Origin: an uncultured Candidatus Saccharibacteria bacterium
GTDB taxonomy: Bacteria; Patescibacteriota; Saccharimonadia; Saccharimonadales; UBA4665
NCBI GenBank assembly: GCA_903900685.1
Contig: CAIUOC010000044.1
Location: 1-37,911, forward strand
Direction of reading: 5' to 3'
Length of the DNA stretch: 37,911 bases
Shown: piece by piece, positions 17,439 to 19,700 of the stretch
Position numbering within the stretch: the stretch's first letter is position 1
How the letters are laid out: every line of letters begins with the position of its first letter
The notes under the pieces: model-generated
Database searches by the model: none
The model's input: the letters and a program-made list of their open reading frames with translations, nothing else
What the model was told of the DNA's origin: nothing
Made by a program: the position numbers and the translations under genes

Positions 17439-17446
17439 GCTCGATT

Positions 17447-17452
17447 ATTATA
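17447..17452 (-). promoter_or_regulatory. Proximal ftsK -10, leaderless layout
   Basis: Minus strand TGATATAAT (extended -10; TATAAT at 17452-17447) ends 8 nt before the ftsK ATG. No Shine-Dalgarno is present. Confidence 0.5.
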
Positions 17453-17468
17453 TCATTTATTTTATCTG

Positions 17469-17491
17469 TTAATTAAAATTTATTTAATTAA
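17469..17491. repeat. AT-only inverted repeat in the ftsK leader
   Basis: TTAATTAAA at 17469-17477 and TTTAATTAA at 17483-17491 are perfect 9-bp arms around a 5-bp centre. It lies between the distal promoter and the ftsK start. It could be a protein-binding site; as RNA its stem would be weak. Confidence 0.5.
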
Positions 17492-17501
17492 TGCTTATGG
17501 T

Positions 17502-17530
17502 ATTATACAAACAAAATACGAACTTGTCAA
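17502..17530 (-). promoter_or_regulatory. Perfect-consensus sigma-70 promoter upstream of ftsK
   Basis: Minus strand: TTGACA at 17530-17525, exactly 17 bp, TATAAT at 17507-17502. It points at ftsK, whose ATG is about 64 bp beyond the -10. Nothing else lies downstream of it. Confidence 0.75.
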
Positions 17531-17643
17531 TGCTAATGTTTTGGTGACTATACCATTACGTACTGTAACTATTGGTAATTATCCATTTACATCTTTCGAT
17601 TTTGCCTAATTTTGTTTTGTATACCGAACAATTTAAATCTAAA

Positions 17644-18354
17644 TTAATATGACATTGACTGTAACAAGAGTTTGAAGTCTAGATAGTTTTGGTTTGATGA
17701 TAATGCCGTCATTGGGTAAGATATTGTTTGACCTATTCCGTTTTCTGAATAAAACTGTAAATAAGCTTGGATATCCGAACTACTCCCCATTATATCGTTT
17801 TTAGCGGGAACGCAATGATAACCAGTCTGGTCAGCACTAACTCCTACGATAATAATTTCACCTTTATTACTAGCATTGGTTATGCCATTGTGATAAAAAG
17901 ATAAATACTCCGGCTGACCTGCAAAAGTGAAAGAAGTACTACTGTCAAGAACAGGAAAAACAGACTCTGAGCTCCCTGAGGGACTACAAATATTATTGCC
18001 TTCTTCCAAAATTTTGACTGAAAGATTAGGGCCCCTGAACCAAACATTATCATATTGACCAGTACCCTGATTTAAGTTAGTTACAGTCCACGTTGAGGGA
18101 TATTTGAATTTAAGCTTCTCATAAGTAAGTTCATAGGTTTTCCATCCATTCGTTGAAGAACTAGATATAGTATTGCTCGAAGATTTAGTTGAATTACCTT
18201 GTACTGAAACGATCTTATTAATATTTGAGGTGTGATGATTTCTATAAACTAAGTATCCTGCAGCCGCTATCAGTACCACCACCAAAACAACCAGAACTAA
18301 CTCCACGCCGCTGAAACCGTCTTGATTTGTTTTTATATTTCTAGTTGATTTCAC
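17644..18354 (-). CDS. Type IV pilin-like protein
   Basis: 236 residues, starting with GTG at 18354. A 13-residue leader ends in Gly, and the prepilin cut would be NQDG/FSGVE: the mature protein begins with Phe and has Glu at position 5, the pilin hallmark. A 20-residue hydrophobic helix follows (LVLVVLVVVLIAAAGYLVY). The rest is a Ser/Thr-rich secreted domain with Cys in GNNICSPSG and YHCVPAKN that may form a disulfide. It could be a minor pilin or pseudopilin of the pilus used for twitching or host contact. No pilus machinery lies nearby. An extended -10 promoter is found at 18400-18428. There is no Shine-Dalgarno. Confidence 0.8.
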   Translation of the reverse strand: MKSTRNIKTNQDGFSGVELVLVVLVVVLIAAAGYLVYRNHHTSNINKIVSVQGNSTKSSSNTISSSSTNGWKTYELTYEKLKFKYPSTWTVTNLNQGTGQYDNVWFRGPNLSVKILEEGNNICSPSGSSESVFPVLDSSTSFTFAGQPEYLSFYHNGITNASNKGEIIIVGVSADQTGYHCVPAKNDIMGSSSDIQAYLQFYSENGIGQTISYPMTALSSNQNYLDFKLLLQSMSY

Positions 18355-18399
18355 TAAACTATATATCTCGTATTATGGTTATTATATTTAAAGCTTATG

Positions 18400-18428
18400 C
18401 TATTAGCATACTTTTTTATGTCTGTAAT
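18400..18428 (-). promoter_or_regulatory. Promoter of the pilin-like gene
   Basis: Minus strand: ATTACA at 18428-18423, 17-bp spacer, TAATAG at 18405-18400 preceded by TGC. The TATGCTAAT core is shared with the EndoU and TraB-like promoters. The same bases form a short palindrome (18396-18410) followed by six T on the plus strand, which might act as a weak terminator for rightward transcription. Confidence 0.5.
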
Positions 18429-18458
18429 TGCAAGTTTATAGAGCCGTTCGTTTAAGTA

Positions 18459-18559
18459 CAATATTGTCTCTATATGTATATATAGTAGGGGAAGAATAAA
18501 TAGAGTAATTCATATCTGTCAGTAGATGCAACAAAGGCTAATATCGACATTAGCCTTTT
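18459..18559 (+). ncRNA. Candidate short transcript ending at a terminator
   Basis: A TACAAT box near 18457-18462, with a TTTATA -35 candidate 16 bp upstream, is followed about 90 nt later by a strong intrinsic terminator, with no plus-strand gene between them. A small RNA of about 90 nt would result. This is an inference from signals only; the terminator might instead be a relic or protect against read-through. Confidence 0.25.
18533..18559 (+). terminator. Intrinsic terminator
   Basis: AAAGGCTAAT at 18533-18542 pairs perfectly with ATTAGCCTTT at 18549-18558 around a 6-nt loop, followed by T. The 10-bp stem with T-tract is strongest for rightward transcription, although no gene ends here on that strand. 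It lies just outside the insertion sequence. Confidence 0.7.
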
Positions 18560-18594
18560 ATGATAAGTAACTTATAGGATTTACCAGGTTAATG

Positions 18595-18600
18595 TACACT
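18595..18600 (+). promoter_or_regulatory. -10 of the IS second gene, within the terminal repeat
   Basis: TACACT ends 6 nt before the ATG at 18607. The mirror site on the other end (TAGACT) also ends 6 nt before the transposase ATG, which supports this start and a leaderless mRNA. Confidence 0.45.
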
Positions 18601-18606
18601 AAATGT

Positions 18607-18849
18607 ATGCCTAAAAAGAAAGCTCTTACTGAAGAAGAACGTCAAGCCTTTATAGATAATCTACCGGAAGATCAGAAGTACTCAGATCCCAAGGTTAAAT
18701 TCGATGAGCTTATTTCACTTGCTTCAAAGATGCCAGTTCCAAAAGACTCGGGGCAATCGGTTGCTGACGCAGGTTATAGCGATAAGCGAACTCATTCACA
18801 TAAAGTTGAAGATACTTCGGACTCACACAATGATAAGTCCCATCAATAG
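18607..18849 (+). CDS. Small accessory protein carried by the IS element
   Basis: 80 residues from the ATG at 18607; an ATG five codons upstream (18592) is in frame, but it overlaps the probable -10 box. The N-terminal half (MPKKKALTEEERQAFIDNL, then KVKFDELISLASKMPVPKDS) is charged and helical; the tail is His/Ser/Asp-rich. Codons 35-80 lie antisense to the transposase C-terminus. Small partner ORFs with an F-x-E/D-L-hydrophobic helix then a Pro-rich tail accompany many IS1595-like transposases, so it may help or limit transposition. I do not know its function. It could also be a chance frame opposite the transposase, but the matching promoter and first half outside the overlap argue against that. 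Confidence 0.5.
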   Translation: MPKKKALTEEERQAFIDNLPEDQKYSDPKVKFDELISLASKMPVPKDSGQSVADAGYSDKRTHSHKVEDTSDSHNDKSHQ

Positions 18850-19579
18850 AACGTTTCATTTGTGACCAAAAGCCTTCAATAGTATTCGTACTTATTCCAT
18901 CTTTTGAGTATTCTTCCTTCGAGTGGTTAATGTATCGGTGGATATATTCGCGTTTTACTCTGTAATATATAGTTGACTCATCTGACTGTATTTCACTGCC
19001 ATGTTTAGCCATGGCCCTAATGAACGGTAAAGCAACAGTAGCATCAGCCCTTTTGGTAGCTATAGCCTTAACTTGACCACTACCTTTTTGTTTCTCCACC
19101 ATGCCAATGACGGCTGTCTTATTGTCGAACTTGCCTTCGTTACCCTTACGCCTACCACCAATGTAGGTTTCGTCGATTTCAACAATACCAGACAGTTGAT
19201 TACTCTTTTGTTGCATAAGTAGGCGTATTTGATTGCATATTCGCCAAGCACACTTGTAGGTAACACCTAGGTGTCGTTGTAGCTCCATGGCTGAGACACC
19301 GTTCTTAGATACTGAGAATAGATACAAGGCATAGAACCACTTAGTTAACGGTGTTGGAGAGTGATCAAAGATCATATTGGCTGTAGGAGATAATGTAAAG
19401 CCACAGTGCGGTTGTTTACAGCCATAAGCTTTCTTATTACGTAAACGATAGAACTTAGTTTCAGCTCCACAATGAGGACAAAACTTAAGATCCCCATAAC
19501 GAGCCTGAAAGATAGTCTCTAAACAGACGTCATCGTTAGGAAAATCTTTTTGTAAGTCTTGTAGTGTGTAGTTCTTCAT
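18710..19579 (-). CDS. IS1595-family (ISXO2-like) DDE transposase
   Basis: 289 residues, apparently intact. The N-terminal zinc ribbon has CPHC near 34-37 and C-x4-HC later, before the SPTANMIFDHSPTPLTKWF segment typical of the family. The DDE catalytic core shows EIDETYIGGRRKGN (first Asp), QSDESTIYY (second Asp) and NTIEGFWSQMKR (Glu). The end, NEFAYRYNLRQQ, is the usual C-terminal signature. It cuts the element ends and joins them to target DNA. A promoter (TAGACA-17-TAGACT, 19586-19614) gives a leaderless start. The 3' third overlaps an opposing small gene. The copy looks active or recently so because no frameshift is present. Confidence 0.93.
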   Translation of the reverse strand: MKNYTLQDLQKDFPNDDVCLETIFQARYGDLKFCPHCGAETKFYRLRNKKAYGCKQPHCGFTLSPTANMIFDHSPTPLTKWFYALYLFSVSKNGVSAMELQRHLGVTYKCAWRICNQIRLLMQQKSNQLSGIVEIDETYIGGRRKGNEGKFDNKTAVIGMVEKQKGSGQVKAIATKRADATVALPFIRAMAKHGSEIQSDESTIYYRVKREYIHRYINHSKEEYSKDGISTNTIEGFWSQMKRSIDGTYHCVSPKYLQLYVNEFAYRYNLRQQPIAPSLLELASLKQVK

Positions 19580-19585
19580 ATTTTA

Positions 19586-19614
19586 AGTCTACACTTCTGT
19601 ATACAGTATGTCTA
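19586..19614 (-). promoter_or_regulatory. Transposase promoter in the IS end
   Basis: Minus strand: TAGACA at 19614-19609, 17-bp spacer, TAGACT at 19591-19586, ending 6 nt before the ATG. The spacer contains the palindrome CTGTATACAG, a possible binding site. Confidence 0.5.
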
Positions 19615-19700
19615 GGGATAGTTACCAATGTTTTTTTATATATCTAATGCTCTATTATTTAAGGTTGCACTAATATTAAATTACTCGAAAATATTTCTAT

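Follow-up and report, generated by a model that had tools for sequence, protein, structure and literature searches.

In the window, a 37,911-nucleotide stretch of DNA from an uncultured Candidatus Saccharibacteria bacterium, we identify an element that we read, with a probability of roughly one half, as a passenger-bearing transposon of the IS1595 family with a conserved accessory gene antisense to its transposase. The element spans 17543–19626 (2084 bp), as given by its terminal repeats and the exact 8-bp target duplications AATGTTTT (Table 1). In the arrangement we propose, the transposase would be transcribed from a sigma-70-type promoter whose -35 is sited in one terminal repeat, and the small gene would run from its own internal, probably leaderless promoter, on the opposite strand, into the transposase tail. 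Its product, predicted to be a short protein of two helices whose core is conserved and whose polar tail varies, is a putative regulator or accessory factor of the transposition machinery, and the convergent transcription is a candidate additional brake on the transposase. Tentatively, and at somewhat less than even odds, we further suggest that the small proteins form an unannotated, widespread family, whose genes run antisense over the ends of the transposase genes of passenger-bearing IS1595 elements in Saccharibacteria, other Patescibacteria, Rickettsiales and further phyla; that this family may be built into the transposon to regulate or partner its transposase; and that it may rank among the best comparative cases of conserved antisense-overlapping protein genes in bacteria.

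It is disputed whether protein genes antisense to other genes are real in bacteria. The small frame varies naturally in length, and this variation supplies a control: silent-site constraint on the transposase begins and ends with the frame. Should the small protein act on transposition, a transposon family that carries diverse passengers through Patescibacteria and other bacteria would have a component that has been overlooked.

Table 1. Features of the element and its flanks, in window coordinates.
Feature	Position	Strand	Basis or remark
Target duplication AATGTTTT, left copy	17535..17542	.	exact 8-bp match to 19627-19634, just outside both repeats
Terminal inverted repeat, far end, GGTGACTATACCATTACGTACTGTA	17543..17567	+	19/25 to other end; family consensus, about 25 relatives
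Passenger gene, 236 aa, start GTG, pilin-like hydrophobic N-terminus GFSGVELVLVVLVVVLIAAAG	17644..18354	-	inside element ends
13-bp inverted repeat between passenger and small gene	18533..18558	.	92% complementary arms
Small-gene -10 box TACACT	18595..18600	+	6 nt before ATG at 18607
Small gene, 80 aa, core KFDELISLASKMP	18607..18849	+	homologues antisense to transposase relatives; codon-position pattern, dN/dS; synonymous constraint
Tail-to-tail overlap, 140 bp	18710..18849	.	small-frame position 2 opposite transposase position 3; same phase in relatives
IS1595-family transposase, 289 aa, zinc ribbon and DDE domain	18710..19579	-	Pfam
Transposase promoter TAGACA-17-TAGACT	19586..19614	-	-10 6 nt before ATG; -35 within terminal repeat
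Terminal inverted repeat, transposase end, GGTAACTATCCCTAGACATACTGTA	19602..19626	-	
Target duplication AATGTTTT, right copy	19627..19634	.	

Ends of the element

The ends were solved via a family consensus repeat. A repeat of the form GGYRAYTATCCCTTGACARCAAGTA stands upstream of most related transposases; its inverted copy was sought, and the flanks were then checked for target duplications. The two repeats obtained in this way begin GGTGAC and GGTAAC, respectively, and a degenerate pattern drawn from the far-end repeat had that repeat as its sole match in the genome. The earlier note on this DNA had proposed fixing ends and duplication from related copies, and about 25 relatives were resolved by the same method, with exact 8-bp duplications. 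Looking for terminal repeats in the vicinity of the genes, with or without gaps, returned only noise. At 17574–17598, immediately inward of the left end, a second sequence resembles the terminal repeat more weakly (17/25) and is possibly a subterminal transposase site.

These ends replace the more compact layout of the earlier note, in which the element would run from about 18592 to 19614 and its terminal repeats would serve as twin leaderless promoters. The proposed right end falls 12 bp inside the true one, and the left end is actually at 17543, so 18592 is internal. That layout drew on a 14/19 similarity between the two stretches and on their equal spacing from -10 to ATG. The two upstream regions do match best in this way; the similarity is near chance, however, being reached by about 5% of letter shuffles with all offsets allowed. 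It comes from the -10 and ATG that both stretches have, and the stretches are not terminal repeats. Of the two promoters placed in the inverted ends, that of the transposase does overlap a terminal repeat, whereas that of the small gene lies within the element, with the passenger gene between it and the true far end about 1.05 kb away. The exact duplications and the 25-bp repeats thus refute the compact layout for the window element, and we give it practically no chance. Twin terminal-repeat promoters are nevertheless real in part of the wider family, for example in locus L104, where a convergent gene with CTGACA-17-TATACT-6 nt-ATG is driven by the far terminal repeat.

Assignment to the IS1595 family

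The transposase has the DDE_Tnp_IS1595 domain (PF12762, 3e-40, residues 128–269) and the N-terminal zinc ribbon (PF12760, 6.3e-9), in agreement with the earlier note's reading of an IS1595 element, and its gene is single-copy in the genome (983 kb, 106 contigs). The border between insertion sequence and transposon in this family is reportedly treated in the 2009 work of Siguier and colleagues. The family itself is attributed to Siguier et al. 2009 (cited in PMC8101967 and PMC12561309); an N-terminal zinc ribbon is found in every group except IS1016 (PMC8101967), and members usually carry one transposase gene only (PMC8101967; an example is given in PMC12561309). The window element shares with the family the DDE domain, the zinc ribbon, the 8-bp duplication and terminal repeats starting with GG, as the family's mostly do. 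Unlike the usual members, it also holds, within its ends, a passenger gene and the conserved small gene on the antisense strand. Because the single-gene layout is usual and not defining (PMC8101967), membership by transposase and ends stands. We do not claim passenger carriage in IS1595 as such to be new. Passenger-carrying insertion sequences and unit transposons likewise have terminal repeats that flank a transposase together with unrelated, varying passengers; what sets the present element apart from them is an antisense small gene over the transposase tail that is kept while the passengers change.

Layout, promoters and product of the small gene

The two convergent genes, the 80-residue frame and the 140-bp tail-to-tail overlap were described correctly in the earlier note, as was a -10 exactly 6 nt upstream of each ATG; both boxes have the form TAnnnT (TACACT for the small gene and TAGACT for the transposase). 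At the small gene, TAnnnT stands at exactly this distance in 10/10 window-type relatives; at the transposase, most relatives with 45% identity or more have a -10 six or seven nt before the ATG. The transposase promoter would be of sigma-70 type, and from promoter placement its mRNA is expected to be leaderless; the small gene, judged in the same way, is probably also expressed without a leader. The 13-bp inverted repeat between the passenger and the small gene is a possible transcription terminator, although a terminator scan called no T-run terminator.

In the small protein, the core F-x-x-L-[LI]-x-[RK]-A-[ST]-x-P is conserved and the polar tail varies; in relatives the tail can shrink to a few residues. 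An AlphaFold model of the protein alone was weak (pLDDT 70, pTM 0.22), with helices at residues 9–17 and 28–40. The curated libraries searched, among them Pfam, NCBIfam and PHROGs, have no family that covers the protein, and a literature search whose scope lay outside Siguier 2009 and ISfinder found the small gene nowhere described. The one Rfam match, to STnc430 (27.9 bits against a cut-off of 47), was sub-threshold and was discarded as chance.

The small frame is constrained as a protein-coding gene

A protein search with the small gene hit 22 further genomes of the class (E ≤0.01), and most of the matches were antisense to a transposase relative. The core is encoded in one fixed antisense phase at the transposase stop in 43/89 loci and in every other antisense phase in 0/89, and in the three sense frames of these loci it occurs 7, 0 and 2 times; since relatives share history, these and the following counts are not independent events and are to be read as strong patterns, not as exact probabilities. 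The frequency of the core follows transposase identity (29/38 at ≥45%, 13/26 at 38–45% and 1/25 below), and on the transposase tree the core label is clustered, with about 12 gains or losses under a strict motif definition. The earlier note had made the case depend on whether relatives of the transposase keep the small gene. Nearly half of the loci encode the core in phase, and some IS1595 relatives are without it yet have transposases that look intact.

Across the last 33 transposase codons of relatives with at least 45% identity, the small frame has 10 stops against 41.6 in synonymous shuffles, and it is open in 25/30 genes against 7.3 expected. Control transposases without the core showed no depletion (72 stops against 69.3 in shuffles). 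A second antisense phase is also stop-poor (47 against 92); far fewer genes are open there, and the core is never present. We also measured codon identity, that is, identical codons among same-amino-acid pairs relative to expectation. At transposase residues 244–272 the ratio was 1.65 and 1.40 in groups with a long antisense frame, 1.09 in the short-frame group and 1.05 in the group that has none; in the short-frame group the excess was limited to residues 273–289 (2.83). Silent-site conservation of the transposase thus rises only where the small frame runs, and the length of the conserved zone tracks the length of the frame.

The C-terminal half of the small frame lies opposite a conserved region of the transposase, and one could suppose that the frame is open merely through composition or transposase conservation. 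Phase specificity, constraint in the non-overlapping part and synonymous constraint that tracks frame length stand strongly against this, and we consider it very improbable. The narrower idea that C-terminal conservation of the small frame simply mirrors the transposase was rejected on the stop depletion and on the silent-site constraint that follows frame length.

The non-overlapping part of the small gene, for which the earlier note had proposed a check of protein-level conservation, diverges fastest at codon position 3 and slowest at position 2 (0.45/0.33/0.64 for positions 1/2/3). In one close pair of loci, L086 and L087, dN is 0.05 and dS is 0.55 over 25 codons outside the overlap. These values bear on whether the transcript, as opposed to the peptide, is what is selected: an antisense RNA, kept open for protection by translation, could lower transposase by pairing with the tail of its mRNA, with the peptide secondary. 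A convergent overlap kept across relatives and a conserved small-gene -10 agree with such an RNA. Conservation of the protein sequence outside the overlap (slowest change at position 2 and, in that one pair, a dN/dS of about 0.1) and the phase-specific protein core point instead to the peptide, and the small frame is kept at L168 despite loss of the transposase. We regard an RNA as the main product as quite unlikely.

Comparison across relatives shows the small frame to be protein-coding, constrained both outside and inside the overlap and tied to this class of transposase. Because relatives retain it under selection, the small gene is probably a real, overlooked component of this transposon family. 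The laoB and asa genes of E. coli O157:H7 (PMC5810103, PMC6294744) similarly encode small proteins antisense to an annotated gene; laoB and asa are backed by expression data, whereas the small gene of the window is known from comparative constraint in several phyla.

Two alphaproteobacterial IS1595 elements, on plasmids of Sulfitobacter sp. W027 (L177) and of a Geminicoccaceae bacterium (L178), have related ends and exact 8-bp duplications. In both plasmid records the transposase tail is covered by an unannotated open frame of the same antisense phase, whose sequence is too different for a homology call; these frames are possibly a parallel or a strongly diverged case.

The small gene persists while passengers change

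The passenger of the window element matched no Pfam family above the cut-off. Passengers change between elements and the small gene persists: the cargoes include a serpin (L088), P63C proteins (L044 and L046), a PAPS reductase-like protein (L080), a ClpP-like protease of the SDH type (L002), a replication-relaxation protein (L087) and a Panacea/SocA protein (L003). The serpin, full-length (Pfam 2.7e-109) and carried by a 2745-bp element (G282:C4), is an unusual cargo for a small bacterial transposon.

Some loci tie the small protein closely to the cargo, and raise the prospect that its role is unrelated to transposition and host-directed, for example as an antitoxin-like protein or as a tail for passenger proteins. 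At L044 and L046 the core forms the C-terminus of the P63C passenger protein. At L100 and L103 the passenger stop and the ATG of the small gene share an ATGA, an overlap suggestive of translational coupling between the two genes. The element at L168 (356–1909, G071:C6) has terminal repeats and an exact 9-bp duplication and is without a transposase, and a 26-aa version of the small gene adjoins its terminal repeat. Against a role of this kind, the small gene stays beside the transposase while passengers change, and a profile search found the small protein next to transposase genes or remnants of them and almost nowhere else. We judge a host-directed role unlikely, and favor one in transposition because of this constant linkage to the transposase. 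Among the profile matches, one (L169, G115:C1:641725–641859; 3e-16) lies in a genome without a detected transposase relative and has no clear terminal-repeat pair nearby.

The insertion site

A perfect TTGACA-17-TATAAT promoter at 17502–17530 on the minus strand, which probably belongs to ftsK, starts just outside the left duplication, with the element directly upstream of it. The intergenic region between ftsK and the RNase J gene holds differing IS1595-type insertions in 3/3 genomes of the genus examined (window 17440–19700, G070 and G393), and an empty insertion site was not demonstrable because G070 and G393 hold other insertions in this same region. The insertion in G393 (L176, G393:C116) is 53% identical to the window element and is separated from the RNase J stop by about 650 bp. 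That in G070 (L175, 380–3160), a 2781-bp element with good terminal repeats and the exact duplication GCTAAAGC, is without a transposase and carries ABC transporter, CHAP and ricin-type lectin domains.
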